Positions 12,641 to 31,955 of a DNA stretch of 64,000 nucleotides are shown here, piece after piece. The translations under genes were made by a program, and so were the position numbers. Positions within the stretch are counted from its first letter, which is position 1. Every line of letters begins with the position of its first letter. The stretch is from Linderina pennispora (lineage: Eukaryota > Kickxellomycota > Kickxellomycetes > Kickxellales > Kickxellaceae): assembly GCF_002104995.1 (NCBI RefSeq), contig NW_024468257.1, forward strand, positions 558,001 through 622,000, in the 5' to 3' direction. Under the pieces are notes generated by a model that was not told the DNA's origin, did not search any database, and was given only the letters and a program-made list of their open reading frames with translations.

Positions 12641-15600
12641 TTATAGTTTAACAATGGGTGTATATGCACGTGTTTTGTTAAATATGCATGTGTGACCTGT
12701 TAAACAATCATACAATACCTTACTATACCTGTCAAGTGTCATGACAACAACAAGAGCAACAACAACAACAACAACGACAAGAAAACCTGGTATATATATA
12801 TAAACTTTCTTTTTGTAAACGCTCATACTCTCTCTCTCTCTCTCTACATATTTTTGTGGTTTACTGTGACTTTGTTTTACTGAGATATATACTTATATAT
12901 ATACTCCTCATTTATTCCTTCATTTAAAAGCAATAACGATGGTATTCTATTCTAATAGTACGAATAATGCCTCGGTTTCTGATCGTCGTCGGATTGCTGA
13001 TCGTGCACGACGCCAACGTCAGAGGGCTTTGAGTGCTCAGGGGGACCGCTCCCATGAACTTGAACAGGAAAGATTACGAAGTCGGAGACGACGGGCAATG
13101 CAGAGCAATGAGAGCCGCAATGCTGCTAACAGACGGCGTTCTTCTCAGCGACAGGCTCAGCGTGCTTCTCAACGACAGATTCAGCGTACTGCATCAGGTG
13201 CACATCTGCCGCTTGCATTGCAGGTATCTGGTGCACACACGTTACCTCTCCGACTTGGAAGAATGGATGTGCAGTGCACCAGTTGTAGTGCCTTGCTATG
13301 GACTGCCGAACGAATCCAGCAGTCCTCTATGGCACGTCCAATTTTTCAGATCTGCTGTGCACGTGGAGCTGTAGTGCTTCCAGCTCTGCAACCGCCACCA
13401 GGAATACTACTTCGACTATTGACTGGCACTAACACTGAAGCGCGGCAATTCCAGCGAAATATCCGAATGTATAACTCGGTACTCTCCTTTACCTCAACAG
13501 GTGGAGTAGTTAATGGCGAAGTTAGCAGGCATCATGGTGGTAAGTACCAATATTCTATGTTTTATATTCTATATTCTATATTCTATATTCTATGTTCTAT
13601 GTTCTATGTTCTATGTTCTATGTTCTATGTTCTACGTTCTACGATTGTTTTATGAATAGCTATATAATTGTTGGAATCATCTCCTCTCATCTCAAATCAT
13701 ATTATATTATATCATAGGTGTCTCTAACTTTCGAGTTCGTGGTCAGATGTACCATAGAATTGGATCACTACTTCCAGTATATGGCAACGAGCAGCCGCAG
13801 TATGCACAGCTGTATATTTACGACACTGCCAATGTGCTTGCAAATCGAATGACTGCAATTCCTGGACTTGATGAGAATACTCTGTCTCTCCTCCAGCAGA
13901 TGCTCCATTCAGTTAATCCGTATGCTGCTCGCTTCCGTCAGGTTGCTGAAATTGTCCAGCAGAATCCATCCCCTGAGCTATGCATAGCAATTACAGCAGG
14001 TCGCAATAACGATTCGCGTCGCTACAACTTACCAACAGCGGATGAAGTAGCTGCAATTATACCCGATGGCCAATATACAAACAATGGCCGTGATATCATC
14101 CTACGGACAACTAATGGTACACTACAGCGGATTTCAGAGCTACATGTTGCCTATGCTGCACTGCACTATGTGCTTCTATTCCCACGTGGGGAGGATGGCT
14201 GGCATCCTGACATTCCTATTTCAGGTCATCAGCATACACGCCAAGACAGTATCCAAGCCCAGGATAATGTCTCAGAGATTTCAGAGAATGGTGTTGGAGA
14301 TGAAGCACTCTCTGGAACCCATCGCCAAAGCCGTGTAACTCAGATGGCCTTTTATGCCTACCGGCTTCAGTTTCGTGGTGAGGCAGCTCCAATCCTCCAC
14401 CTAAGTAGGAGGTTATTCCAGCAGTATATTGTCGACGCATATTCCACTATTGAGAGCAACCGCCTACGATGGTATGCAAGAAACCAAGACAATATTCGTG
14501 CTGAAATGTACCAAGGTATGTATTAGTTTCAATCATATATAAAATATAGTAAGAAATGATGCTATTGTTGTTGTTGTTGTTGTTGTTGGTTAATGCACAT
14601 TTAGTATGAATTATTATAATAGTAAGAAACTGCTGCTAACATTATTAATCAAATATATTTATCTATATATAGGCCTTCAAGATGCTGTCCAGCTATCTGA
14701 AGCCGATATGGTTGGTGCTAACCTTGGTCGTAGAGTGATATTGCCATCCTCATATACTGCTGGTCCCCGCCATATGTATCAGCTCTATCAAGATGCAATG
14801 GCTATTGTGAGGACATTTGGCCCCCCTGACCTATTTATTACCTTCACCTGCAACCCCCGTTGGCAGGAGGTACAGGCCGAATTACTCCCTGGACAATCTG
14901 CTGCTGATCGCCCAGATCTAACAGTTCGTGTCTTCAATATCAAGCTGAAGGAACTGATTAAAGATCTAACGAAGAGGCATGTTTTTGGTCAGGTTGCTGG
15001 TCATATTTACACTGTTGAGTTTCAGAAGCGAGGGTTGCCCCATACACATATTCTGCTTATTCTGGACAGTGAGTCAAAGCACCGAATTATCACAGAAATC
15101 GACCGAGTGGTATGTGCTGAGCTTCCTAATGAACAGCAGAATATGCAGCTCTTTAGAGTTATTGCCACTTCAATGATGCATGGGCCATGCGGGCCACTAA
15201 ACCCACAGGCACCATGTGTAAGAGAAGGCAACTGCACAAAGCGCTACCCAAGATTCTTTTCAGAGGCCACACAAATCACCAATAATGGCTACCCGATTTA
15301 TCGACGGCGTGAGGATGGGCAGTTTGCTTCTATAAGAGGAATGCAGCTTGATAACCGATGGGTTATACCTTATAACCCTTATCTAGCTGCAAAGTATGAG
15401 GCACATATTAATGTTGAGGTGTGCTCCTCAATCACTGCTGTCAAGTACCTTTTCAAATATGTGTACAAGGGCCATGATCGTGCAGCTCTCCATATAACAA
15501 GGGCAAGGACAACTGATACAACAAATACTGCAGTTGAGAATGAGATCCAGAGCTATGTTGATGGCCGCTATATCTCTACTTCTGAGGCAATCTGGCGAAT

Positions 15601-16974
15601 TTTTGCATTCCGCCTACATGAGGAGAAGCCCGATATTCAACGACTTCAAGTCCATTTACCAGGGGAGCAAATGGTTCTCTTTCATGATGGTGAGCTTATT
15701 TCTGAAGTTGTTAACCAGCAGCACCTTGCACATACTACACTCACACAGTGGTTTGCTTATAATGCTGCCCACCCAGAGGCCCGTGCATATACATATGCTG
15801 AATACCCACAGCATTTTGTCTGGAATCACCAACAGCGTGTCTGGAAGCCAAGGCAGAGAGGTAATACAATTGGGCATATCTACTTTGTTTCTCCTAGAGC
15901 TGGAGAACGATTCTACCTCTGAATGCTACTCAATGTAGTTCATGGTGCAATATCATTTGAAAATCTCAGGACTATCAATGGTGTTGTTTATCGAACATTT
16001 AGAGAAGCCTATATAGCACTTAGCCTGCTTGAAGATAACTGCGAATGGGCTAGGTGCTTAGATGAAGCTGCACAAGTCCAGATTGGTCACCAACTCCGAT
16101 ATTTATTTGCCACTATTCTTGCTCAAGAAAACCCAGTAAACCCATACGCACTGTGGATACAGCACCAGACAAGCCTAATTGATGATCTATTATATAGAGC
16201 CCTCATGCATACAGCTAATCAGGAAGCCGCTGAGCAATCTGCTATTAACAGTGCCCTTAGGGAGATTAACTCTATTCTTCTCCACTCTGGGCGCTCACTT
16301 AGTGACTATCCTGGCATGCCAGTTCCAATACCAGAACATGCAAATGGTGATAGTACTGAAAACTATTTAATTAGTGAGCAGCTATCATTTAATCAATCTG
16401 AGCTTGCTGATTGCACTGAACAGATGCTTCGTATGGCTAATACTGAGCAGTTAGCAGCCTATAATACCATTATGTCTGCTGTAGAAGGGTTAGCTAATAC
16501 TACAGCAACATTTTTCTTCCTTGATGGCCCTGGAGGAAGTGGCAAAACATTCCTGTATAAGCTTCTCCTTGCTCATATTCGGAGCCAAGGCTATATTGCC
16601 TTAGCAACTGCCTCCTCTGGCATTGCTGCTATGCTTCTCTCTGGTGGTCGAACTGCTCACTCTACATTTAAGATACCTCTAATTGTAGATAGTACTTCAA
16701 CATGCAATATCTCCCTTGGCACTAACTTGGCATCATTGCTCCAGGCCACAAGGCTGATTATTTGGGATGAGGCACCAATGATGCATCGTCATACATTTGA
16801 GGCCCTTGATCGCACACTGCGGGATATAATGTGCTCTGCTGATCCAGCCCTTAAGCATCAGCCTTTTGGAGGTAAGGTAGTAGTAGCTGGTGGCGATTTC
16901 CGCCAAATTCTCCCTGTCATTCCAAAGGGAAATAGAGCTCAAACTGTTGATGCAGCTCTTTGCCGATCTCCATT

Positions 16975-17370
16975 GGAGGTCATTCACAATCACTAAACTA
17001 AGTAAAAAATAATTAGAAATTGTAAAACTTTTTGTTCTTTTGTTTTTTTTGAACTTCTCCGAAACCCCCTTCGGCATCCTGAAAAATTTCAGTTGATACA
17101 CAATTAATATGCTTCTACTGAGATACAGGCTGGGTCACAAGAAATCAACTGAAATTTTTCAGGATGCCGAAGGGGGTTTCGGAGAAGCGTCTATTCTTAT
17201 ATTTTTGTTTATTTGTTAATCTAGTTGCTAAAATCTTTTTGGCCATCACTAAACATTCTGATTTTTAAAATATTTTTCAACTGCTAGTAATTGATTTGTT
17301 ATTTAATACTTGGTTATTCTGATACAAGATATTAAGTTTCTTTAAACTTTCTTATTTGTGAATGGCCTCC
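16975..17370 (+). repeat. Left terminal module M of copy A (fold-back, 396 bp)
   Basis: It is bounded by GGAGGTCATTCACAA and its near inverse TTGTGAATGGCCTCC. The core is an inverted repeat with roughly 44-nt arms (17053-17096 and 17144-17187, containing CCCCCTTCGGCATCCTGAAA) around a spacer of about 47 nt. It is repeated in the same orientation at 29805-30200. The ORF1 ATG (17362) lies inside its last 9 bases. Confidence 0.9.
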
Positions 17371-19006
17371 TTAAGAGTACATCTTAACTCCCTTTTGGGA
17401 CTTGAGTTGAAGAATAGAGATAATATGCCTGATATATCTGATGCAAGATATACTAGTAATGGCATCGAACAGCAAGGATTTGTTCAGCAATCTGATATCT
17501 TTATGGATTCATGTGTTGTTGAGATTCCTGACTCATATACTCTAATGGATCAACTTCATAATATCACTCCTTTTGATAGATTGCATAGAGTATTTGGTGA
17601 TGGTTATAGTTTTAAATACATAAGATGCAGCACAAGTGTGACAAATGGTAATGTCTCTGTGTATAAAGTATCTGCTCCAAATGTTGCAATAGCTGATCCT
17701 GCACTAACTGATATCTTTCTTAGGATGCATCAAGAACATGTATTTCTTCAAAACTATGATATTACAATGGATTGTCTAAATATTTCTTCTAGAGCTATTG
17801 TTAAGGAATTTCTTCTTGATAATGGAATCAGTAGCAAAGATATTCTTGATGATGAAAATAAAGTTGGAGCAAACTGTATTAGCTGGTTTACTGAAGAAGA
17901 TGAGATAAGAATAAGGAACAAGTTGTATAATAAATTTGTTCAACTCTTAGAAAGTGGTGAAGTTCGCAATCAACTTACTTCTAAGCTATCAGAGCTAGTG
18001 ATGCCAACTTCTCAACAGTTTGGTGAAACACTTGTTGCTTGTAGGAATGAAGGATTAATGAGACTTGAGCTTACTGTTCACTCTCCTGAGTTGAAGGAAG
18101 TAGAATGGAACACAAACTTAATTGTCAATACTCTTGAGTTTCTTCATAACTGCAGGACATTTGCAACATCTTATAAAAAGCAATGGATGGCACTAGTTGA
18201 TCAGATTCATAACAAACATACATTGTGTATTTACTTCCATAAAGAACATTCTCTTGGTTACTGCCATTGGTTCAATAAAACAACTAAGAAGAAACAAGGA
18301 ATAGCTAAAAAGTTGAAAAAGAATGAGGATATGATGACTGTTGTTTCTAATCTTACATTCAATGGATACCCAACTGTTCTTCTTACATATGCTACTAGTA
18401 GTGGTCCTCTTGAATCTGAAGTTGTTCTGAGAAGAGATATCACAAACATCACTATTGTTCCTAGTCAGAGAAACTCCTTCTGGCCAGTTGCTTCAAGAGA
18501 AAGACAACAACATACATTTGCTGAAATGGGACTTATTAACTATCGTGGAATACATATTGATTGGTTAACAGCTCAGCAAGCAAGAGAGAAAGTTAGACTT
18601 TCAACTCTCTCAATTGTTAGTGATAATACTGATGGTTTAGGAATAGATGACCTTCTTGCAGATATTAGCAATATTGAACTTGATGACCTAGAACCTACAT
18701 ATTTAAGAGAAAATACTGATCTCAAGCCAGCTAGATATAAAGTTGCTTACAACATACTTCATGTTGGTGATGAGTTCTTAGTTAGTTATTACTTCCTATA
18801 TACTTTTAGAGGATTACCTTTCTACTATCTAGATATTTCTATGATTCACAATGAAATAGTTAGTAGCACTCATACTACTTATCAAAGTACTGGTAAGTAG
18901 TCCATTTGGTGAATGTATTGCTTCTGTTATTGGCCAACCAAATCAAGAAGTAGTGCTTAAAGTAACTAGAATTCATAATCGTATTATCCATACTGAGAGA
19001 ATCTAG
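17362..19006 (+). CDS. Copy A ORF1: large transposon protein, replication-initiator-like motifs
   Basis: About 547 residues; an extra base near 18880 moves the frame, and the true end is TAG at 19004-19006. Function is not known to me. Across the three copies the most conserved block is residues 125-245: YDITMDC (D133), CISWFT, KLYNKF (Y189), QLLESGEVR, RLELTVH (R234). The order D-I-T-x-D, [RK]xYNK, RxEL resembles rolling-circle replication initiators of plasmids and phages, but I see no clear HUH pair, so this is a hypothesis. A later block reads QWMALVD and YCHWFN. It starts within the terminal module and converges on ORF2, the stops being 2 bp apart. Confidence 0.6.
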
Positions 19007-19008
19007 TT

Positions 19009-19248
19009 TTAAAATGGGCAGTTGGCAACCATTACTTCCATATCTGCACAACTGTAGTTGCATACATCAAACACATGCTTAATACTAACACCCCTATCTT
19101 CTGAAACATTCTTAATCCATGCTCTGATGTACACTGTTAATTTTCTGCTCATATTGAAATTTCTGCTAAGTAGTTGGACTAGCTTTTCTCTCTCTTCCTC
19201 ATCTAGCTCAGAAAGTTGAGTGTTGAAGAACTTATAGAATGGGCCCAT
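19009..19248 (-). CDS. Copy A ORF2: 79-aa helical protein
   Basis: A small acidic protein (MGPFYKFFNTQLSELDEEER...) with mostly helical composition. It has a 79-residue counterpart in copies B and C sharing the FF..QL.E...EER, FNMS and V.HV.DVC positions. An upstream in-frame ATG at 19263 exists, but the conserved start is at 19248. It is opposite in strand to ORF1 and ORF3, ends in the TTTTAAAA octamer shared with ORF1, and is divergent from ORF3 with 43 bp between start codons. It may be an accessory or DNA-binding factor; unknown. Confidence 0.6.
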   Translation of the reverse strand: MGPFYKFFNTQLSELDEEEREKLVQLLSRNFNMSRKLTVYIRAWIKNVSEDRGVSIKHVFDVCNYSCADMEVMVANCPF

Positions 19249-19291
19249 TATAATAAATGACAACTTTTAAATTTATTAGTACATCGCACAG

Positions 19292-20521
19292 ATGAATCAT
19301 CAATTACAAGAACTCAGAGAAAAGGAATATCATAAGCTCTACACAAATAAGTGGAAATTTCTGAATGATGACTGGGTAGTTCTTAAGCATACAAAATATC
19401 ACAGAAGTGAAGTTCGTGAAGTAAGAGAAATCAAACTTATAAAAGATACACTTCTTAAACATCTAGGGATGATTCCTGTTTTCTTCTTTCTGAATGTTTT
19501 ATTTGGCTGCACTCATTATCCATGTCCTTACAGAAGTATAGAAAAAGGATTGCTTATCTTATACCAACTTGTAGAAGGATTGTCAATCAATGAAATGGAA
19601 AGATTCCTTCCAAGAAGTAGCTATCAAGTTATTCACAATATGTTCTACATTTCAGAAATGCAAGATTTGAATAAGAAGCTGACATTCTATCTGCAAACAA
19701 TGTTTTCTACTCCAGAGCTACGACTACTTGCAGCAAAGATGCAGAATCCTCATGGGTTTAAACATATAACACTAATGTTAGATGGCCATGATTCAAGAGC
19801 TCTACACAATGGTGCATACAAACCAGGACTTTATTCCTTCAAGTTGAAGAAGTCAGGATATCGTACACAAGTTTGCATTGATATAAATGGAATGGTTCTA
19901 CTTGTTTCACCAACAGAAGACTGTAGAGATAATCCAGATTCAAGAATGATTAAAAACATGGGATTATTAAAGAGGATATCCCCTATAGATTGTATTGTGC
20001 TTGATGGTGGCTATCCACAGAGTGTTCTTCAAGAGATGACAGAGGAAGAAGAGCAGGAGGACTTTGGAATGCATAACTTTTGTTTGCCAATTAGAAAGCA
20101 GAGAGGGGTAAACTTACTAGAAGCAGAAGTAGAGTACAATTCCCATCTTGGATCATTCCGTTCAATGGTAGAAAACACATTTGGAGAACTAGGAACAACA
20201 TTCAAAAGGTTGTCAAATAAGGAGATTGTTCGAGTAAAGAATAAGAATGTTTACAATGTGCAAATGAAACTGTGCTGTGTATTATATAATATGAAGAAAA
20301 TACTAGCCAACAGTGATGTACAAGTAGAACATCATCATACTCTCTGGGTTATGACAAACTTTGACTATCCTGAATCACACAATGAAAGATCAACACAAAT
20401 GGAACCAACATATACTTTACCTCAAAAGGTTGAGTTTGAAGCATCAATGGTTGAACTACAAAATAGATTTCTACAATCTAAAATTGATGACAACTATGAC
20501 TGCTTTGTAGATATGGGGTAA
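19292..20521 (+). CDS. Copy A ORF3: DDE transposase, 409 aa, intact
   Basis: An uninterrupted frame. The catalytic triad is readable: D164 in LMLDGHDS, D238 in VLDGGYPQS and E294 in SMVENTFGELG. A DDE_Tnp_4-like context surrounds it (FKLKKSGYRTQVCIDINGM and FKRLSN). An N-terminal helical domain (MNHQLQELREKE; GMIPVFFFLNVLFG; GLSINEMERFLPRSSYQVI) looks like a helix-turn-helix. Family knowledge: such enzymes cut and join transposon ends. All three catalytic acids are present, so this copy could be active. TTTTAAAA follows 26 bp after the stop. Confidence 0.85.
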   Translation: MNHQLQELREKEYHKLYTNKWKFLNDDWVVLKHTKYHRSEVREVREIKLIKDTLLKHLGMIPVFFFLNVLFGCTHYPCPYRSIEKGLLILYQLVEGLSINEMERFLPRSSYQVIHNMFYISEMQDLNKKLTFYLQTMFSTPELRLLAAKMQNPHGFKHITLMLDGHDSRALHNGAYKPGLYSFKLKKSGYRTQVCIDINGMVLLVSPTEDCRDNPDSRMIKNMGLLKRISPIDCIVLDGGYPQSVLQEMTEEEEQEDFGMHNFCLPIRKQRGVNLLEAEVEYNSHLGSFRSMVENTFGELGTTFKRLSNKEIVRVKNKNVYNVQMKLCCVLYNMKKILANSDVQVEHHHTLWVMTNFDYPESHNERSTQMEPTYTLPQKVEFEASMVELQNRFLQSKIDDNYDCFVDMG

Positions 20522-20586
20522 TAACAGATATGATGCTAGCTACTTGATTTTAAAATAGCTAGTTCTTATCAATATTATTCAATATA

Positions 20587-20725
20587 GAGGGTATTCATAA
20601 CTGCTAAATTTAGTAAAAGATAGTTAGAACTTTTAAAACTTTATTATCTAATGCACATTCTACTCCTTCTCTTGTAATTCTTATAATTGATTGTTCATGG
20701 GTGGTAAGATAAGATAGACAACTCT
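20587..20725 (-). pseudogene. Relic copy D, part 1: module fragment and antisense ORF3 start
   Basis: 20587-20648 resembles the M module start (GAGGGTATTCATAACTGCTA against GGAGGTCATTCACAATCACT, then a shared GTAAAA...TTAGAA tract). 20651-20700 resembles the antisense start of ORF3 (CACATTCTACTCCTTCTCTT; ATG as CAT near 20696). It is directly followed by copy B and is the left remnant of an older copy. Confidence 0.5.
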
Positions 20726-21082
20726 GGAGGTCATTCAGAGATAGTTATCTGCACAACAATTATTTGTGCATATTGAAACTATTGGCAATTTCAGTGAAAT
20801 AAAAATTTCACCCAAACCACCATCGGCATCTTGGAAAAGTTTCAGTGAACATAATTTCAACCAGAAAGAAAAACTTTGCATATTTGGGGTTAATTATCAT
20901 TGGGCAACAAAAGTCAATATCTCAATAGATGTGGCTAAGCAACCACAAGGAAATTATGTTCACTGAAACTTTTCCAAGATGCCGATGGCGGTTTGGGTGA
21001 AATTTTTATTTCACTGAAATTGCCAATAGTTTCAATATGCACAAATAATTGTTGTGCAGATAACTATCTCTGAATGACCTCC
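20726..21082 (-). repeat. Terminal module N of copy B (357-bp fold-back)
   Basis: Nearly a single giant hairpin. The arms of about 125 bp run from GGAGGTCATTCAGAGATAG inward to TTTCAGTGAACATAATTTC and back, around a loop of about 110 bp. The inner arm has CCATCGGCATCTTGGAAAAG, homologous to the arm of module M. It is repeated in part as module Q at 28445. Confidence 0.85.
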
Positions 21083-21143
21083 TTATTGAAGCATTTTCTA
21101 TCAATGCAAAATTCTTACTGAAAATTCTTATTTTAAAAGATGT

Positions 21144-22374
21144 TTATGACATGTCAACATAGAAGTTCATTGACTCATCAATTTTAGCTTGAATCAGTCT
21201 ATCTTGTAGTTCTCTCATTGAAGCCTCTAACTCTACTTTTTGTGGTAAACTACTTCCAACTTCAGCATGTGTTGATCTCTCCTGATTGTTGCTTGGGTAG
21301 TCAAAGTTAGATAGAACCCAAAGTGTGTGGTGATGTTCAACAGGAACTTTACTAGCTGCTAGGATCTTCTTCATATTGTAGAGTAAGCAACAGAGTTTAA
21401 ACTGCACATTGTACACAGTTGTGTTTCTAATTCTCACAACTTCTCTATTTGATAGTCTCTTAAATGTGTTACCTAGTTCTCCAAATGTGCTCTCAACCAT
21501 TGATCTAAATGACCCAAGTTTGCTATTATATTCTAACTCTGCCTCACTTAAGTTGGTTCCTCTTGGCTTTCTAACTGGTAAGCAAAAGTTATGCATTCCA
21601 AAATTTTCATTCTCTTCTGCTTCTGTTAACTCCTCCAGAATACTTTGAGGATAGCCACCATCTAAACACAACACAATCTACTGGAGAGATATATTTCAAT
21701 AGTGACATGTTCTTAATCATCTTAGAGTCTGGGTGGTTTCTACATTCCTCAGTTGGTGAAACAAGGACAACCATTCCATTCAAATCAATGCAAACTTGTG
21801 TTCTATATCCTGACTTCTTCAACTTGAAGGAATAAAGATTTGGTTTGTAAGCACCATTATGTAGTGCTCGTGAGTCATGTCCATCTAACATAAGAGTAAT
21901 ATGCTTAAACCCTTTAGGATTCTGAATCTTTGCTGAGATCACTCGTAGTTCTGGAGTGGAGAACATTGTGTGCAAGTAGTGTGAAAGCTTCTTGTTCAAC
22001 TCACTTAACTCTGAGATATAGAACATATTATGAATCACTTGGTAGCTACTCTTAGGAATAAACCTTTCCATCTCATTGATTGATAGCCCAGCAACTAACT
22101 GGTACAAAATCAAGAGTCCTTTCTCAACATTTCTGTATGGACATGGATACTGCTTTCCACCAAACAACACATTTAAGAAGAAGAACACAGGGATCATTCC
22201 AAGTTGCTTAACAAGTGTATCTTTGATAAGCTTTATTTCTTTTACTTCATGAGCTTCACTCCTATAATACTTCTGCTGTTTATGCACTAACCAGTCGTCA
22301 TCAAGAAATCTCCACTTTGTTGTGTAGAGCACATTCCACTCCTTCTCTCTTAATTCTTGTAATTGATTATCCAT
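21144..22374 (-). CDS. Copy B ORF3: DDE transposase, one extra base
   Basis: About 86-90% like copy C ORF3 by eye. MLDGHDS, LDGGYPQS and SMVESTFGELG are all present. An extra base near 21672 (TTGTGTTTAG where copy C has TTGTTTTAG) shifts the frame just before LDGGYP. Length is 1,231 bp against 1,230 in copies A and C, so exactly one base is surplus. Confidence 0.75.
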
Positions 22375-22425
22375 CAGTGTGAGGTAGTCATAAATAAAAA
22401 TTTCAACTTTTATCAATTTTAGAAA

Positions 22426-22665
22426 ATGGGATCATTCCAGAACTTCTTCAAGCAACATTTAGCTGAGATGTGTGAGGAAGAAAGAAATATGCTTACTCTG
22501 CTACTTATTCATGATTTTAATATGAGTGATGACCTAGCAATACAAGTGCATAATTGGATCCAACATATTGCTACTGATTGTGAGGTAAGGGTTGAACATG
22601 TGTATGATGTTTGTCATACTTTCCATAGAGATATGGAGAGAATGGTTGCTTATTCTTTGTTTTAA
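22426..22665 (+). CDS. Copy B ORF2: 79-aa helical protein
   Basis: Begins MGSFQNFFKQHLAEMCEEER, nearly identical to copy C ORF2 and homologous to copy A ORF2. It ends in the TTTTAAAA octamer at 22660-22667, and its start is divergent from ORF3 with about 51 bp between ATGs. No known domain. Confidence 0.65.
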   Translation: MGSFQNFFKQHLAEMCEEERNMLTLLLIHDFNMSDDLAIQVHNWIQHIATDCEVRVEHVYDVCHTFHRDMERMVAYSLF

Positions 22666-23905
22666 AATGGACTGCTATTCAACTGTGATTGTTCTATATC
22701 CTATACTTATAACTCTTAAGTAGCTTTGTTGCTTTGTTTCTCCTAACTGTTGAGAAATTGCTTTTCCAATTGAACTATCTGCTGGTGTCCTGATAAGAGT
22801 TGGCTGTTTATCTCTCCCTTTAATAATAATATCTAGATAGAAGTATGAATATCCTCTGAAAGTATGGAGTGCATAATGTGTAACTGTAAATTCATTACCT
22901 AACTGAAGAACATTATAAGCAACTCTATATAATGATGGTTTCAGATCTGTATTCTCTTTGATATATATATGTCTAATTTCATCTAGTGTGATGCCTTCAA
23001 TTGCAGTTATTAGTGGATTGATATTTTGCTCATCTGCAGAATATTCAACCTCTGACATTTCTGATAGACATATCTTACTCTTTGCTTGCTTACTATCTAT
23101 CCAACCAATATGCATTCCTTTGTAGTTAACTAATCCCATCTCTTTAAAAGTATGATACTGCTTAGTTATAGGATAAGTAGACCAGAAGGAGTTTCTCTGA
23201 CTTGGAACAATAGTTATATTCTCATCAACTCTTCTAAGAACTTTTTCTATTTCAAGACCACTCTCAAGTGAATCATATATTTGATAAAGTGTAGGTCTAT
23301 TGTTGAATGAGAGATTAGCAACAACTACCATTGGATCTTCATTCTTAGTTTAGCTTCTTAATAATTCCTTGCTTCTTTGATGTGATAGAGTTAAACCAAT
23401 GACAATATGCTAGAGTATGCTGTTGTCTCACATAAATACAAACTGTATAACAACTACTAACCTTATCAACAAGTGCCATCCACTGCTTTTCATAAGAAGT
23501 TGCAAATGTTCTGCATCCATTCATAAAGTCAAGTGTAGTAAGAAGCAAGTTACTATTCCATTCAACTGTTTGCATCTGAGAAGAATGTACAGTTAGTTCT
23601 ATCCTAGTCAAACCAGAGTTTCTACAAGCATACAATGTTTCTCCAAAGTTGTGCAAAGTTGGCATTACAAATTCTGAAAGTTTAGAACTAAGAGGATTAC
23701 GAACTTCACCACTCTCAAGAAGTTGAATAAACTTATTGTAAATTTTGTTCTTAACTTTAATATCTCCTTTCTTTGTGAACCAACTAATACAGTTAGAACC
23801 AGACTTACGTAAATCATCAACTACATCTTTCTTTTCAATTCCTCTTTCTAAAAGGTATTTATAAATAATATTCCTAGAAGACACATTCTTACAATCCATT
23901 GTGAT

Positions 23906-24367
23906 GGGGGTTATACAGAGACACTTATCTGCCCATTAACTATTTATGCATGCTGGAAACTATTAGCAATTTCAGTGAAATAAAAATTTCACCCAAACCG
24001 CCATCGGCATCTTGGAAAAGTTTCAGTGAACATAATTTCCTTGTGGTTGCTTAGCCACATCTATTGAGATATTGACTTTTGTTGCCCAATGATAATTAAC
24101 CCCAAATATGCAAAGTTTTTCTTTCTGGTTGAAATTATGTTCACTGAAACTTTTCCAAGATGCCGATGGCGGTTTGGGTGAAATGGCAAAAAAAATATTT
24201 GTATTTTTAAAATCAATTATACACACAAAAACATTCTGGACACAATAACAAATAATAACTATAGAAAAAATAATTAGTAGCAAAAAATAGTTCTGAAAAC
24301 GATTATTCAAATATCTATCTAACAAAATTGCAAATAACTAAAATTTACAAGTCCAGGAATGACCCCC
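23906..24367 (+). repeat. Left terminal module P of copy C
   Basis: 462 bp, GGGGGTTATACAG...GGAATGACCCCC, with the same CCATCGGCATCTTGGAAAAG palindromic arms as module N and an extra AT-rich 3' segment. The ORF1 ATG (24359) overlaps the terminal ATGACCCCC. Confidence 0.9.
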
Positions 24368-25994
24368 TTCCAGAGTGAACTAAGAGCATTACTATCAAGA
24401 GTGTTATCAGAAAGAAGAAATATGCCTGATGTCGCTGATGCTAGGTATACTGCTAGAGGTATAGAGCAACTTGGATTTGAGCATTCTTCTGAAATATTTG
24501 TTGACTCATTCATTGTTGAGGTTGTTGTTGAGAAATGCAGTGAATCAGATATAAAGGTGAAGCAGAAGTCAGCTAGTGTTAGATTGCATAAAGTATTTGG
24601 AGAAGGTTTTGGTTATAAGTATGTTAGAAGTAAGATTAGTGAAAAATATGGTCCAGTTGCTATTTACAAAGTATCTACCCCAAATATTGCAATAGCTAGT
24701 TCTTTGTTAACAGTGAAGTTTGCTGCTATGGCTGATTACAAAATATATCTACAAAATTATGACATCACAATGGATTGTATGGATATCTCATCTAGAAATA
24801 TTATCTATAAATACCTTTTAGAAAGAGGAGTTGAAAAGAAAGATGTTGTAGATGATTTACGCAAGTCTGGCTCTAACTGCATTAGCTGGTTTACAAAGAA
24901 AGGAGATGTTAAAGTTAAGAACAAAATTTACAACAAGTTTATTCAGCTTCTTGAGAGTGGTGAAGTTCGTAATCCTCTTAGTTCAAAACTTTCTGAATTT
25001 ATAATGCCAACTTTGCACAACTTTGGAGAAACATTGTATGCTTGTAGAAACTCTGGTTTGACTAGGATAGAACTAACTGTACATTCTTCTCAGATGCAAA
25101 CATTTGAATGGAATAGCAGCTTGCTTCTTAACACAGTTCAGTTTATGAATAAATGCAGAACATTTGCAACTTCTTATGAAAAGCAGTGGATGGCACTTGT
25201 TGATAAAGTTAGTAGTTGTTATACTGTTTGTATTTATGTGAGACAACAGCATACTCTAGCATATTGTCATTGGTTTAACTCTATCACATCAAAGAAGCAA
25301 GGAATTATTAAGAAGCTAAACAAGAATGATGATCCAATGGTAGTTGTTGCTAATCTCTCATTCAACAATAGACCTACACTTTATCAAATATATGATTCAC
25401 TTGAGAGTGGTCTTGAAACAGAAAAAGTTCTTAGAAGAGTTGATGAGAATATAACTATTGTTCCAAGTCAGAGAAACTCCTTCTGGTCAACTTATCCTAC
25501 AACTAAGCAGTATCATCACTTTTGAAGAGATGGGATTAGTTAACTACAAAGGAATGCATATTGGTTGGATAGATAGTAAGCAAGCAAAGAGTAAGATATG
25601 TTTATCAGAAATATCAGAGGTTGATTATTCTGCAAAAGAGGAAAACATCAATGCATTAACAACAGCAATAGACAATATCACACTTGATGAAACTAGACAT
25701 ATATTTATCAAAGAGAATACAGATCTGAAACCATCACTGTATAGAGTTGCTTACAATGTTCTTCAGTTAGATGATGAATTTATAGTTACACATTATGCAC
25801 TCCATACTTTCAGAGGACATTCATACTTCTATGTTGATATTCATATTAAAGGGAGAGATAAACAGCCAACTCTTATTAGGACACCAGCTGACAGTTCTAT
25901 TGGAAAAGCAATTTCTCAACAGTTAGGAGAATCAAAGCAACAAATATATCTAAGAGCTGTAAGTGTGGGATATAGAACAATCACAGTTGAGTAG
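24359..25994 (+). CDS. Copy C ORF1: replication-initiator-like transposon protein, one extra base
   Basis: About 544 residues, the best copy of ORF1. Conserved blocks as in copy A: NYDITMDC, ISWFTKKGD, KIYNKFIQLLESGEVRN, GLTRIELTVHSS, FATSYEKQWMALVD, LAYCHWFNS. The frame shifts near 25507, where CATCACTTTTG has one base more than copy B (CATACTTTTA). It begins inside the terminal module and its stop (25992-25994) is 6 bp from TTTTAAAA. Function unknown; the replication-initiator resemblance is my inference from motif order only. Confidence 0.65.
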
Positions 25995-26002
25995 CAGCCA
26001 TT

Positions 26003-26242
26003 TTAAAACATAGTATATGCAACCATTCTCTCCATATCTCTATGGAAAGTTTGACAAACATCATACACATGTTCAACCCTTACCTCACAATCAGTAGCAA
26101 TATGTTGGATCCAATTACGCACTTGTATTGCTAAGTCATCACTCATATCAAAGTCATGAATAAGTAGCAGAGTAAGCATATCTCTTTCTTCCTCACACAT
26201 CTCAGCTAAGTGTTGCTTGAAGAAGTTTTGGAATGATCCCAT
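26003..26242 (-). CDS. Copy C ORF2: 79-aa helical protein
   Basis: Begins MGSFQNFFKQHLAEMCEEER, with DVCQTFHRDMERMVAY near the end. Conserved in length and sequence with copy B, which argues that it is a real protein. Its start codon is 51 bp from that of ORF3 on the other strand. Confidence 0.65.
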   Translation of the reverse strand: MGSFQNFFKQHLAEMCEEERDMLTLLLIHDFDMSDDLAIQVRNWIQHIATDCEVRVEHVYDVCQTFHRDMERMVAYTMF

Positions 26243-26293
26243 TTTCTAAAATTGATAAAAGTTGAAATTTTTATTTATGACTACCTCACACAG

Positions 26294-27523
26294 ATGGACA
26301 ATCAATTACAAGAATTAAGAGAGAAGGAGTGGAATGTGCTCTACACAACAAAGTGGAGATTTCTTGATGAAGATTGGTTAGTACATAAACAACAGAAGTA
26401 CTATAGGAGTGAAGCTCATGAAGTGAAAGAAATAAAGCTCATCAAAGGTACACTTGTGAAGCAACTTGGAATGATCCCTGTGTTCTTCTTCCTAAATGTT
26501 CTATTTGGTGGAAAGCAGTATCCATGTCCTTACAGAAATGTTGAGAAAGGACTCTTGATTTTATACCAGTTAGTTGCTGGGCTATCAATCAATGAGATGG
26601 AGAGGTTTATTCCTAAGAGCAGCTATCAGGTAATTCATAATATGTTCTATCTCTCAGAGTTAAGTGAGTTGAACAAGAAGCTTTCACACTACTTACACAC
26701 AATGTTCTCTACTCCAGAACTAAGAGTGATCTCAGCAAAGATTCAGAATCCACAAGGGTTTAAGCATATTACTCTTATGTTAGATGGACATGACTCACGA
26801 GCACTACATAATGGTGCATACAAACCAAATCTTTATTCCTTCAAGTTGAAGAAGTCAGGATATAGAACACAAGTTTGCATTGATTTGAATGGAATGGTTG
26901 TCCTTGTTTCACCAACTGAGGAGTGTAAAGACTACCCAGATTCTAAGATGATTAAGAACATGTCACTATTGAAATACATCTCTCCAGTAGATTGTGTTGT
27001 TTTAGATGGTGGTTATCCTCAAAGTATTCTGGAGGAGTTAACAGAAGCAGAAGAGATTGAGAATTTTGGAATGCATAACTTTTGCTTACCAGTTAGAAAG
27101 CCAAGAGGAACCAACTTAAGTGAGGCAGAGTTAGAATATAATAGCAAACTTGGGTCATTTAGATCAATGGTTGAGAGCACATTTGGAGAACTAGGTAACA
27201 CATTTAAGAGACTATCAAATAGAGAAGTTGTAAGAATTAGAAACACAACTGTGTACAATGTGCAGTTTAAACTCTGTTGCTTACTCTACAATATGAAGAA
27301 GATCCTAGCAGCTAGTAAAGTTCCTATTGAACATCACCACACACTTTGGGTTCTATCTAACTTTGACTACCCAAGCAACAACCAGGAGAGATCAACTCAT
27401 GCTGAAGTTGGAAGTACTTTACCACAAAAAGTAGAACTAGAAGCTTCAATGAGAGAACTACAAGATAGACTGATTCAAGCTAAAATTGATGAGTCAATGA
27501 ACTTCTATGTAGACATGTCATAA
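26294..27523 (+). CDS. Copy C ORF3: DDE transposase, 409 aa, intact
   Basis: The start MDNQLQELREKEW at 26294 matches copy A; the longer upstream frame runs through the divergent promoter. MLDGHDS, VLDGGYPQS and SMVESTFGELG carry the three acids. The same length as copy A and no frame damage suggest a functional enzyme. TTTTAAAA at 27529-27536 lies 5 bp after the stop. Confidence 0.85.
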   Translation: MDNQLQELREKEWNVLYTTKWRFLDEDWLVHKQQKYYRSEAHEVKEIKLIKGTLVKQLGMIPVFFFLNVLFGGKQYPCPYRNVEKGLLILYQLVAGLSINEMERFIPKSSYQVIHNMFYLSELSELNKKLSHYLHTMFSTPELRVISAKIQNPQGFKHITLMLDGHDSRALHNGAYKPNLYSFKLKKSGYRTQVCIDLNGMVVLVSPTEECKDYPDSKMIKNMSLLKYISPVDCVVLDGGYPQSILEELTEAEEIENFGMHNFCLPVRKPRGTNLSEAELEYNSKLGSFRSMVESTFGELGNTFKRLSNREVVRIRNTTVYNVQFKLCCLLYNMKKILAASKVPIEHHHTLWVLSNFDYPSNNQERSTHAEVGSTLPQKVELEASMRELQDRLIQAKIDESMNFYVDMS

Positions 27524-27584
27524 GCAACTTTTAAAATAGGAATTTTTTACAAACTTTACTTAATGATAGAAATATCTTCAATAA

Positions 27585-28045
27585 GGGGGTTATACAGAGA
27601 CACTTATCTGCCCATTAACTATTTATGCATGCTGGAACTATTAGCAATTTCAGTGAAATAAAAATTTCACCCAAACCGCCATCGGCATCTTGGAAAAGTT
27701 TCAGTGAACATAATTTCCTTGTGGTTGCTTAGCCACATCTATTGAGATATTGACTTTTGTTGCCCAATGATAATTAACCCCAAATATGCAAAGTTTTTCT
27801 TTCTGGTTGAAATTATGTTCACTGAAACTTTTCCAAGATGCCGATGGCGGTTTGGGTGAAATGGCAAAAAAAATATTTGTATTTTTAAAATCAATTATAC
27901 ACACAAAAACATTCTGGACACAATAACAAATAATAACTATAGAAAAAATAATTAGTAGCAAAAAATAGTTCTGAAAACGATTATTCAAATATCTATCTAA
28001 CAAAATTGCAAATAACTAAAATTTACAAGTCCAGGAATGACCCCC
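27585..28045 (+). repeat. Right terminal module P of copy C
   Basis: 461 bp, in the same orientation as the left module and nearly identical to it, except for one base less in GCTGGAACTATT (GCTGGAAACTATT on the left). Confidence 0.9.
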
Positions 28046-28444
28046 GATATCATAATTCTGTAAGTATATTTTGTGTTTAGCCATTGTAGCAAACTTCACT
28101 GTTAACAAAGAACTAACTATTGCAATGTTTGGTGTGGATACTTTGTAAATAGCAACTAGTCCATATTGTTCACTAATCTTGCTTCTAATATACTTATAGC
28201 CAAAACCTTCTCCAAATACTTTATGCAATCTAACACTAGCAGACTTCTGCTTTATCTTCATATCAGATTCAATGCATTTCTCAATAACAACCTCAACAAT
28301 GAATGAGTCAACAAACATTTCAGAAGAATGCTCAAATCCAAGTTGCTCTATACCTCTAGCAGTATACCTAGCATCAGCAACATCAGGCATATTTCTTCTT
28401 TCTGACAACACTCTTGTTAGCAACACTCTTAGTTCACTTTGGAA

Positions 28445-28905
28445 GGGGGTCATTCCTGGACTTGTAAATTTTAGATATTTGCAATTTACTTAGTTAGATA
28501 TTTGATTAATCGTTTTCAGAACAGTTTTTTGCTACTAATTATTTTTATCATGGTTAATATTAATTATTGTGTCCAGAATGTTTCTGTGCTTATAATTGAT
28601 TTTAAAAATATAAATATTTTTTTTGCCATTTCACCCAAACCGCCATCGGCATCTTGGAAAAGTTTCAGTGAACATAATTTCAACCAGAAAGAAAAACTTT
28701 GCATATTTGGGGTTAATTATCATTGGGCAACAAAAGTCAATATCTCAATAGATGTGGCTAAGCAACCACAAGGAAATTATGTTCACTGAAACTTTTCCAA
28801 GATGCCGATGGCGGTTTGGGTGAAATTTTTATTTCACTGAAATTGCCAATAGTTTCAATATGCACAAATAATTGTTGTGCAGATAACTATCTCTGAATGA
28901 CCTCC
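28445..28905 (-). repeat. Terminal module Q of copy B (P/N hybrid)
   Basis: Its ORF1-proximal end (GGGGGTCATTCCTGGACTTG) matches module P, and its outer end (ATAACTATCTCTGAATGACC) matches module N. The central palindrome is shared by all. It contains the start codon of copy B ORF1. Confidence 0.85.
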
Positions 28906-29535
28906 TATGTTTTAAAATGGTAGTTATATAACTGTGACCATTCTGTAGCCCTCACTTATAACTCTTAGATATATTTGTTGGTGTATTATTCCTTTCTATA
29001 GAGTAATTGCTTTTCTAAAAGAACTATCATCTGGTATCTAAATATGAGTTGGCTGTATATCTCTCCTATTAATATGAATATCTAAATAGTAGTAGGAATG
29101 TCCTCTGAATATACAGAGTGCATATTAGGTAACTACAAAACCATTACTGAAATAGAGAACAATATGAGCAACTCTTTACTAAAGGCTTAAGATCTAGATT
29201 ATCATATAATTATTACCCTTATTTCATCTAGTATGGCATCTTCAATCACTGTTGTTAGTGCATTGATCTTTTGTTCACCTATAGAAACTACACCTCAGAC
29301 ATTTCTTATAGACAAATCATAATATTTGCTTATTTGAGTACATTCAGTCTATCTAACTAATATGCATCTCTTAATAGTAAACTAATCACATCTTATCAAA
29401 AGTGTGATATTGCTTAGATATAGGATATATAGACCAGAAGTAATTTCTTGGATTTAGAACAATAGATATATTATCATCAACTCTTCTAAGAACATTTACC
29501 ATATTAAGCATATTCTTATGTGACTTGTATATTTG
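28906..29535 (-). pseudogene. Relic copy D, part 2: decayed ORF1 3' portion
   Basis: Recognisable by eye as a degraded version of 22661-23290: TTTTAAAATGG, GAGTTGGCTGTATATCTCTC, GTCCTCTGAATATACAGAGT and others, with many substitutions and stops. It is far more diverged than copies A-C, so it is the older element that copy B entered. Confidence 0.65.
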
Positions 29536-29559
29536 ATGTTTTAAACTAGCACAGTTTGA

Positions 29560-29783
29560 TGCTTTCTAAAATTGATGACATATATGATTGCTTGGTGCAT
29601 ATCTATTAATTACAGATGGGATTCTAACAACTTGATGAATTTATTATGATTTTTTAAAATGGCATAATTTGATTCTTTCTAAAATTGATGATATATATGA
29701 TTGCTTGGTATTAGAAAAATAGTTATAAATAGGATGATAACGACTTGATGACTAGAACATGATGTTTTAAAATGGCAGCATTT
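29560..29783 (+). repeat. Two tandem relics of the ORF3 3' end
   Basis: TTTCTAAAATTGATGACATA (29570) and TTTCTAAAATTGATGATATA (29674) each continue to ATGATTGCTTGGT and then to TTTTAAAATGGCA, in units of about 105 bp. They match the end of copy A ORF3 (CAATCTAAAATTGATGACAA) plus its TTTTAAAA. Confidence 0.5.
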
Positions 29784-29804
29784 GGAGGTTATTCACAATC
29801 ACTA

Positions 29805-30200
29805 GGAGGTCATTCACAATCACTAAACTAAGTAAAAAATAATTAGAAGTTGTAAAACTTTTTGTTCTTTTGTTTTTTTTGAACTTCTCCGAAACCCCCT
29901 TCGGCATCCTGAAAAATTTCAGTTGATACACAATTAATATGCTTCTACTGAGATACAGGCTGCGTCCCGAGAAATCAACTGAAATTTTTCAGGATGCCGA
30001 AGGGGGTTTCGGAGAAGTGTCTATTCTTATATTTTTGTTTATTAGTTAATCTAGTTGCTAAAATCTTTTTGGCCATCACTAAACATTCTGATTTTTAAAA
30101 TATTTTTCAACTGCTAGTAATTGATTTGTTATTTAATACTTGGTTATTCTGATATAAGATATTAAGTTTCTTTAAACTTTCTTATTTGTGAATGGCCTCC
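29805..30200 (+). repeat. Right terminal module M of copy A
   Basis: 396 bp, almost identical to 16975-17370 and in the same orientation. It is preceded at 29784-29804 by a 21-bp partial extra copy of its first bases (GGAGGTTATTCACAATCACT). Confidence 0.9.
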
Positions 30201-31321
30201 ATTATGGAGTCAAGCACAAATTCTACACCTTACTACCAATATGCGACTCCAACTTAGGGCTGGTGCCCAGGATTGTACAGCAATCCAATTTGCTGACTGG
30301 CTACTTCAAGTTGGGGAAGGAAGGTTACCCAGCGATGAATATGACCAAATTCAATTACCTGTGGGTACTGTAATACCCTCAGATAATGTTGAGCTATTGA
30401 TCAATGCAATTTATACTAATTTAGCATATCAATATAATCAAGCCAACTATATGGTCAATCGTAGCATCCTATCACCAACTAATGCCTCAGTGAATGATCT
30501 AAATAACAAGATCATTGACCATCTACCAGGCACTATCATTAACTACTATAGTGCTGACTCAATTGCAGATACTGATGGTGCAACTACAGAGACCCAGCAG
30601 TTGTTCCCAGTTGAATTTCTTAATTCACTAGATGTTGGTGGAACCCTACCACCTCATCACCTCCGCCTCAAAGTAGGGGCACCAATCATACTCCTACGTA
30701 ACCTAGATTCAGCCCATGGTCTATGTAATGGCACACGACTTATATGCCATAGATTACAGCCCCATGTGATTGATGCTGAAATTATAACTGGTGCTGCTTA
30801 TGGTACCAGGGTATTTATACCCCGAATGATATTAACAACTAAGCACCAGCAATTACCATTTGTTCTACGCCGATGCCAGTTCCCAATCCGCCTTGCCTTC
30901 TCAATGACTATAAATAAGGCCCAAGGTCAAACAATGGAACGAGTTGGGCTTTATCTTCCATCACCTATCTTTACTCATGGCCAACTCTACGTGGCACTTT
31001 CTCGCATACAATCATTTAGTAATCTCAAGATAATGTTAGGGTCAGCTACACATTATCCTGATAGTGAACCTAAGACTAAAAACATAGTCTATAAGGAGAT
31101 ATTTTCTTAGTTTAATTTTAGCTTTATATATAAATATATTTTTTATTAGCTAATACTAATTTCTACCATATACTATTATTAGTATTAAAATTATTAAATG
31201 TTTTATATTAAAACCTATTATATTCAAAAACAAATTTGTATTTATGTATTCAGCCCGCTGCAGGCGCTAGCAGTCTCCACCGAAATGTGTGACAAACAGC
31301 GTTTGGCACACATAGAGGTGC

Positions 31322-31349: not shown

Positions 31350-31955
31350 TCTTTACCTATATATAAGATTTTATAGTCCAAAAAGTGTCCGACCGTCCGC
31401 TAGAAATTATTTAATTGGTTAAAAAACTCTTAAGCTTCAACACGGGTTTGAGTGACTTGCTCTGTAAACTCCCTTTGGTTTTGTGCGGCATCTGACCTCA
31501 CCGGTGAAACCAGGGTGACAAGTTATTATTGTAGTGGTCACAGGTCTCTACTGGATATCTCCATTGGTTCAGCGCAAGAGCTGCTCTCATTGTCAGCTGG
31601 CCTGATAACTTCCATGGCATCATCATGGTGGTCATCGCCGGCTGCGCAACACTCAGGATATTTATTTATGAGCACCTATTGAATAAGGCCATATAGCTCT
31701 TCTAGCGGTCATGCAATATTTGTGGGTTTATTTTACAAATTAATTTGTCTTATGAACATGCGTAAGCGGTAGTATTTGAGCCACAATGGACCCAGTCTGT
31801 ATAGACTGATTCAAGAGACTGTATCAGTGCTAAGGGCCCCAAGAACCATGCAAGCCAGAAAATCTTTAATAAAAAGTTCTTAATGCTATGCATACGCAAT
31901 ACAGCAAAACTGAACAGCATCATTTCTCTTCTTACTTGCCTATTGAACTTCTCAA

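Follow-up and report, generated by a model that had tools for sequence, protein, structure and literature searches.

Long terminal repeat (LTR) retrotransposons are bounded by direct repeats, leave solo repeats flanked by target duplications, form tandems that share a repeat, and start a gene beside the repeat. Helitrons and Replitrons are eukaryotic elements with hairpins and rolling-circle-type Reps of the HUH kind, Helitrons inserting without target duplication, and at the hairpin termini of parvoviruses such as adeno-associated virus (AAV) the inner palindrome switches between flip and flop orientations through nicking at the hairpin. In this study, we describe an element of the fungus Linderina pennispora that shares traits with all of these, present as three nested copies (A, B and C) in a stretch of 64,000 nucleotides (contig NW_024468257.1, positions 558,001 to 622,000; hereafter the window). 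Each copy contains open reading frame (ORF) 1, a reversed 79-codon ORF2, ORF3 encoding a DDE transposase, and a pair of direct-oriented hairpin modules, and it seems somewhat probable that the element is a DDE transposon which also encodes a rolling-circle-type replication initiator. From an anatomy that is observed directly we infer a chemistry in which copy-out replication likely proceeds through DDE insertion together with Rep-like nicking at the module hairpins.

All four features of LTR retrotransposons recur in the Linderina element; however, its repeats are hairpins and its enzyme is of the DDE_Tnp_4 type. With Helitrons and Replitrons it has in common a eukaryotic host, hairpins and a gene product, ORF1, which resembles a rolling-circle-type Rep in its modelled fold, but their Reps are HUH proteins, and the 3-bp target duplications of the element stand in contrast to the lack of duplication in Helitrons. 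Its ORF1, ORF2 and ORF3 gave no Pfam hit to Helitron, PIF1 or reverse transcriptase models. The flip and flop orientations recall parvoviruses and AAV, but the hairpins here are internal to modules that share one orientation within an integrated element, and the fold modelled for ORF1 is not HUH.

As far as the accessible part of the source describes them, PHIS elements have the same general kind of DDE transposase, mostly 3-bp duplications and commonly GG ends (Han et al., PMC4482050), and by its domain match ORF3 resembles their DDE_Tnp_4 transposases. In contrast to PHIS elements, the Linderina element has long direct-oriented hairpin modules, and its ORF1 and ORF2 match neither Myb/SANT nor YqaJ models. 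None of the six PHIS groups, as they are defined there (PMC4482050), accounts for its duplications: among 33 matching triplets, the TWA of PIF/Harbinger, which also has a Myb/SANT second ORF, is represented by a single TTA, the ANT of Pangu by six, the CWG of NuwaI by none and the TNA of NuwaII by three, whereas ISL2EU (2-bp AT duplication and a YqaJ ORF) and Spy (no duplication) disagree with 33 of 49 flank pairs matching at 3 bp and 6 of 49 at 2 bp. The element is distinguished by ORF1 and by its flipping modules, neither of which was interpreted in the initial annotation, and not by the superfamily of ORF3. Our literature search, to which subscription papers, Repbase and Dfam were external, found no element with this layout. 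The suggestion in the initial annotation of this DNA that no named superfamily is built in this way is supported for the layout, but not for ORF3, which is a known DDE_Tnp_4 transposase.

Anatomy and genomic distribution of the element

The three copies with a common gene order, and the large inverted-repeat end modules that point in the same direction within a copy and end in GGAGG/CCTCC or GGGGG/CCCCC, had been recognized in the initial annotation. All of this is confirmed here with sharper coordinates (Table 1), module lengths of 396 bp (A), 461–462 bp (B 5′ and C) and 357 bp (B 3′), and ends that generalize to GGRGG at the start and CCYCC at the end of every module in the window. Solo modules, loop inversion, tandem units and the resemblance of ORF1 to known initiators are new observations. 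Copy B lies reversed inside A, and its ORF1 is in turn interrupted by C; B is degenerate and the ORF1 of C is frameshifted, so that both are partly broken here.

The outer 11 bp of the window modules form an imperfect inverted repeat flanking a hairpin, with 44-bp arms and a 46-nt loop for the 5′ module of A and 54-bp arms and a 91-nt loop for C. Both modules of a copy share direct orientation, the A pair being 98.2% identical. The motifs TCGGCATC and TTTCAGT are common to A and C stems, the stem of each is self-complementary and the loops differ; from these sequences the A and C stems look related. In the aberrant B 3′ module the second half is replaced by an inverted copy of the first half, as fold-back copying or synthesis would do, and the resulting extended palindrome has arms of 133 bp. 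Within each family the inner junctions recur at one fixed base, and the ORF1 ATG is embedded in the module end (GAATGGCCTCC, read as M-A-S, in A; GAATGACCCCC, read as M-T-P, in C), so that one module plus the three genes makes a closed unit.

The survey covered the 26.17-Mb L. pennispora genome in 222 contigs, for which labels such as C1, C35 and C112 are our own. The element is no chance artefact, because there are at least 85 genome matches to ORF1 and at least 104 to ORF3. An ORF3 match lies 350–480 bp away from 60 of the 85 ORF1 matches, rising to 47 of 52 when the ORF1 match exceeds 1380 bp; conversely, once four short ORF3 matches were dropped, an ORF1 match lies at that distance from 61 of 100, and from 47 of 58 when the ORF3 match exceeds 1180 bp. 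All three ORFs are present in each of the 15 complete copies whose interior was covered, and the three-gene set was seen only in Linderina. Where these copies are nested, ORFs of the inner element also lie within the span, and the own ORFs of the outer copies were listed as well.

Module numbers are lower bounds, since the best 40 candidates were scored in each search and opposite-strand self-matches of hairpins were left out; the stretches examined cover part of the copies. Both ends were recovered for 96 modules, which comprise 24 complete 5′/3′ pairs (paired by hand), 25 solos, and the remainder at broken or partly covered copies. For one module scored as a solo (C157, 1110554) the stretch ended at the module edge, and it was therefore treated as the 5′ module of a copy. 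Exact 3-bp duplications flank 18 of the 24 complete copies and 15 of the 25 solos. Among these 49, flanks matched at 3 bp in 33 cases, at 2 bp in six, at 4 bp in one and at 5 bp in none, whereas 10,000 shuffles of the flanks gave 4.4 matches on average and never more than 13. The matching triplets were TAT (8), ATA (4), AAT (3), TTT (3), TGA, GAT and ATT (2 each) and nine singletons. That the element inserts by its outer ends and duplicates 3 bp is well supported, and the ATT and GAT duplications claimed initially hold for A and C; B, with flanks ATA and AGA, is one of six pairs that have no matching duplication. Ten solos also have none, and at least one of them (C1, 3001534) probably represents a 3′ module whose inner flank has changed.

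The insertion of A can also be read from its host sequence, since it interrupts the PIF1 domain of a Helitron: the ORF on the left covers profile positions 3–173 and that on the right 173–220, and the joined flanks continue in frame with one stop counted in 653 codons. The solo modules fit either transposition of a single module or recombination between two modules. Tandem units with a period of 3678 bp occur on C133 (5513, 9191) and C1 (3296763, 3300441), and in both one module serves as the 3′ end of one unit and the 5′ end of the next; as both tandems extend to contig ends, their outer flanks were left out of the duplication comparison. Elsewhere at contig ends, arrays of about 50 copies of the 14-bp unit AGAGGGGTTTAGAA (L018:1971-2677 on C13; L021:9090-9832 on C24), which are probably telomeres with an unusual repeat, have element modules nearby, at about 160 bp (C13) and 20 bp (C24).

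The three genes and the resemblance of ORF1 to Rep_trans initiators

Profile searches, proposed in the initial annotation, placed ORF3 but found no family for ORF1 or ORF2 at a usable E-value. ORF3 matches DDE_Tnp_4 (E 1.1e-13 and 2.5e-13), which we take to be the Pfam DDE domain of IS5/PIF-Harbinger-type enzymes, and its D, D, E triad can be read in the motifs LMLDGHD, VLDGGYP and RSMVE. We found 184 relatives, and among the 120 listed many come from Mortierellomycota or Mucoromycota and many carry a chromodomain. The nearest of the listed matches are a protein on a 3912-base contig (54%) and a Coemansia protein (57% over two thirds), followed by many chromodomain-DDE proteins, of which those with a named source belong mostly to Mortierellomycota and Mucoromycota. 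In all three families compared (A, A2 and C) ORF2 has a length of exactly 79 codons, and neither Pfam nor PDB offered a match to it at a usable E-value. Among these families, the ratio of nonsynonymous to synonymous substitution (dN/dS) was 0.21–0.32 for ORF1, 0.09–0.39 for ORF2 and 0.10–0.12 for ORF3, ratios that are rough for comparisons with family C, where dS exceeds 1; judged by these values, all three look maintained as genes.

ORF1 is 512 aa long in A and open over 547 in several other copies. By sequence it matched no family at a usable E-value in Pfam, PHROGs or NCBIfam and no PDB entry, no relative was found in viral contigs, in prokaryote genome contigs or, with tblastn, in plasmids (two weak plasmid hits fell in a transposase), and Foldseek against a viral library gave nothing usable. 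An early guess that it might be an HUH Rep was abandoned when the fold search pointed to Rep_trans instead: the ORF1 model has the TATA-box-binding protein (TBP)-like fold seen in bacterial Rep_trans rolling-circle initiators (PF02486), a family that includes RepSTK1, the pT181-type RepD/RepDE, inovirus RstA-like proteins and MobT relaxases. In the accessible part of the published description, Y191 is flanked by R189 (Y−2) and K193 (Y+2), with E196 at Y+5, where RepSTK1 has Q; the metal-site residues are D46, D142 and E214, and D146 and R212 are named in addition (PMC4797284). In an alignment of 16 ORF1 sequences, Y189, K187, K191, Q194, D133, E236, D137 and R234 are invariant and D49 nearly so, and the model places them on strands and a helix whose order agrees with that in Rep_trans. 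ORF1 thus shows the YxK motif, a basic residue at Y−2 (K, where R is published), Q/E at Y+5, RxE and the metal-site acids, which by order and strand would be D49, D133 and E236. The core (R/K)xYxK..(E/Q) arose once in 200,000 column shuffles and the full ordered pattern never, K and Q having been admitted to the pattern after ORF1 had been seen. Moreover, pT181-type Reps are published to act at hairpin origins, and the modules of the element are hairpins.

A second point of comparison is Rep-Arvir, the initiators of archaeal viruses and plasmids, described in the accessible part of the source as TBP-fold relatives of Rep_trans that escape detection by sequence and work with a DNA hairpin; compared by that description only, they differ in being archaeal, in having no DDE partner described and in not keeping the YxxK-type context (PMC13107129). 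Relatives of ORF1 outside Linderina are few. Twelve were found, four of them on contigs of 3585, 3698, 3700 and 3846 bases, close to the 3678-bp unit, a result that assembly collapse of direct repeats would give likewise. The ORF1-like P0017 and the ORF3-like P0098, whose longest contigs both measure 3698 bases, may share a contig, or the agreement may be coincidence.

Loop inversion and the proposed mode of replication

A hairpin was detected in 94 of the 96 modules, and between its arms the loop is found in either orientation, at 95–100% identity in family C. Orientation was counted in 92 modules, the B 3′ module, an ambiguous case and the two modules lacking a detected hairpin being excluded; after the loops were turned one way, family C had 30 flip and 23 flop (n = 53), A2 nine and five (n = 14), and A 23 and two (n = 25). 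Among family C module pairs with zero other differences, 80 agree in orientation and 80 are opposite. Eighteen family C modules are identical except for loop orientation (11 flip, 7 flop), several of them non-independent as pairs from one element. Two 4140-bp copies on C35 (14–4153 and 16005–20144) have 3216-bp interiors with no difference and opposite loops at both ends, and five pairs combine a flip with a flop module in a single copy (C1 2110337, C1 2993462, C1 3002854, C112 392039 and C135 54580). Identical modules and interiors with opposite loops imply, as far as sequence comparison can tell, that flipping in family C is much faster than substitution. Pairs with two or fewer differences make up 232 of 1378 in family C, half of them opposite, and 9 of 300 in family A, all with the same orientation, which suggests that family A copies are older.

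In the mechanism that we propose, ORF3, assigned the role of inserting enzyme from its family, would cut at the outermost GGRGG/CCYCC ends and insert the element. ORF1 would nick the module hairpin, extruded as a cruciform, and prime strand displacement up to the next module of the same orientation, which could either release a circle of one module and the three genes (3678 bp in family C) or produce units in tandem. The loop would become inverted when the base of the hairpin is cut and rejoined. We infer the replication role of ORF1 from its fold and residues, the hairpins and their direct orientation, the placement of the start codon, the tandem units and the loop inversion. Rolling-circle replication begun at one origin ends at another only if both have the same orientation, as in rolling-circle plasmids, and the direct orientation of the modules would matter for this reason. 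In its fullest form, which we put forward tentatively, the element would be a rolling-circle or hairpin replicon in a eukaryote, with a Rep_trans-like initiator, DDE integration, flip-flop modules as origins and the one-module circle as the replicating form.

Several observations weigh against an initiator role for ORF1. In the fold search TBP itself ties with or exceeds Rep_trans. The PF02486 profile matched neither ORF1 nor 15 aligned members, nor anything across the genome at E ≤ 1, and hhalign of ORF1 against four and nine Rep_trans proteins was not significant (E 0.037 to 0.92); of these controls, PF02486 was confirmed for a piece of the VfO3K6 protein, which the first control matches exactly over that part, the others were accepted by similarity and annotation, and phage Cf1c was dropped as its replication protein looked to be of the HUH type. 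Two positions ahead of the metal D, nine Rep_trans controls have an invariant R (R140) where ORF1 has N, S or D, the Y-to-R spacing is 45 residues compared with 15–21 in the published pair, and ORF1, unlike Rep_trans proteins, is carried by a eukaryotic DDE transposon. Finally, family A has copies with an open ORF1 yet rarely flips, which a process driven by ORF1 has to explain.

The TBP matches and the nonsignificant profile comparison would equally suit a non-catalytic ORF1, a TBP-fold DNA-binding partner of the transposase with a role like that of the Harbinger Myb/SANT protein. The DDE enzyme would then only cut and paste, and host recombination would invert the loops, inverted repeats being able to recombine without enzymes of the element. 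We regard this as rather unlikely, because the invariant set of tyrosine, lysines and acids coincides with published catalytic residues, and because the two orientations are equally frequent among otherwise identical C modules, whereas 2 of 25 modules are inverted in A, although the arms are about as long (54 bp in C and 44 bp in A). As A copies are apparently older, a uniform host-driven rate fits this difference poorly.

It is improbable that the element is a composite in which two self-mobile modules, akin to miniature inverted-repeat transposable elements (MITEs), bracket a gene block, the transposase moving either a module or the whole and the direct orientation having arisen by accident and then been fixed. 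Individual modules do possess short terminal inverted repeats, and 3-bp duplications flank 15 of the 25 solos, but recombination between two modules can also yield solos, the recurring inner junctions in each family and the ORF1 ATG in the module end indicate an integrated arrangement of module and genes, and loop inversion and ORF1 would be left unexplained. That the loop orientations are assembly errors is highly improbable: a short-word assembler could choose either way between identical arms, and our evidence comes from assembled contigs rather than raw reads, but a 3.3-Mb contig and near-identical nested copies on single contigs point to long reads, a paper on 6mA (N6-methyladenine) methylation includes Linderina in its comparison of fungi according to its accessible part (PMC8298701), and family A, of the same design, is not randomized.

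DDE cut-and-paste transposons and rolling-circle replicons are normally separate, and if ORF1 is an active initiator the element joins both, which would explain a rise in copy number of a DDE transposon through replication. Rep_trans-type initiators are restricted to bacteria plus one archaeal relative in the accessible account (PMC13107129), our literature search found no other report of a Rep_trans-like initiator in eukaryotes, and their range would, if the proposal is true, extend to eukaryotes. Loop orientation in long reads would offer a cheap readout of hairpin processing in vivo.

Coordinates and neighbouring sequences

Table 1. Positions of the nested elements, their modules and genes, and the interrupted Helitron in the window
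Feature	Position	Strand	Details
ATT target duplication of A	16972–16974 and 30201–30203		
Element A, whole	16975–30200	+	B and C nested within
A 5′ module	16975–17370	+	396 bp; arms 17054–17097 and 17144–17187; loop 17098–17143
A ORF1	17362–18900	+	512 aa, Rep_trans-like (modelled fold); ATG within module end
A ORF2	19009–19248	−	79 aa
A ORF3	19292–20521	+	DDE_Tnp_4 transposase, 409 aa counted from ATG
A 3′ module	29805–30200	+	
Element B	20726–28905	−	degenerate, interrupted by C, without matching target duplication
B 3′ module	20726–21082	−	extended palindrome, 133-bp arms
B ORF3	21144–22431	−	broken
B ORF2	22426–22665	+	
B ORF1	22675–23905 and 28046–28474	−	in two parts
B 5′ module	28445–28905	−	
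Element C	23906–28045	+	4140 bp; GAT duplication 23903–23905 and 28046–28048
C 5′ module	23906–24367	+	arms 23986–24039 and 24131–24184; loop 24040–24130
C ORF1	24359–25994	+	frameshifted here (frames 24359–25525 and 25455–25994); open in other copies
C ORF2	26003–26242	−	79 aa
C ORF3	26294–27523	+	DDE_Tnp_4 transposase, 409 aa counted from ATG
C 3′ module	27585–28045	+	
Helitron (Helitron_like_N and PIF1)	13660–16996 and 30166–31110		several frames; host of element A

Between the B and C copies and the A 3′ module (window 28906–29800) lie inverted remnants about 57–59% similar to the ORF1 of family C, and on C35 and C2 comparable remnants likewise precede the 3′ module of A; it seems from these three places that family A carries a fossil of another family. 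An Rfam scan of the window returned nothing. Downstream, an 864-codon open frame (31947–34541) has no Pfam match and contains imperfect tandem repeats of 12–15 bp at window positions 33290–33442.

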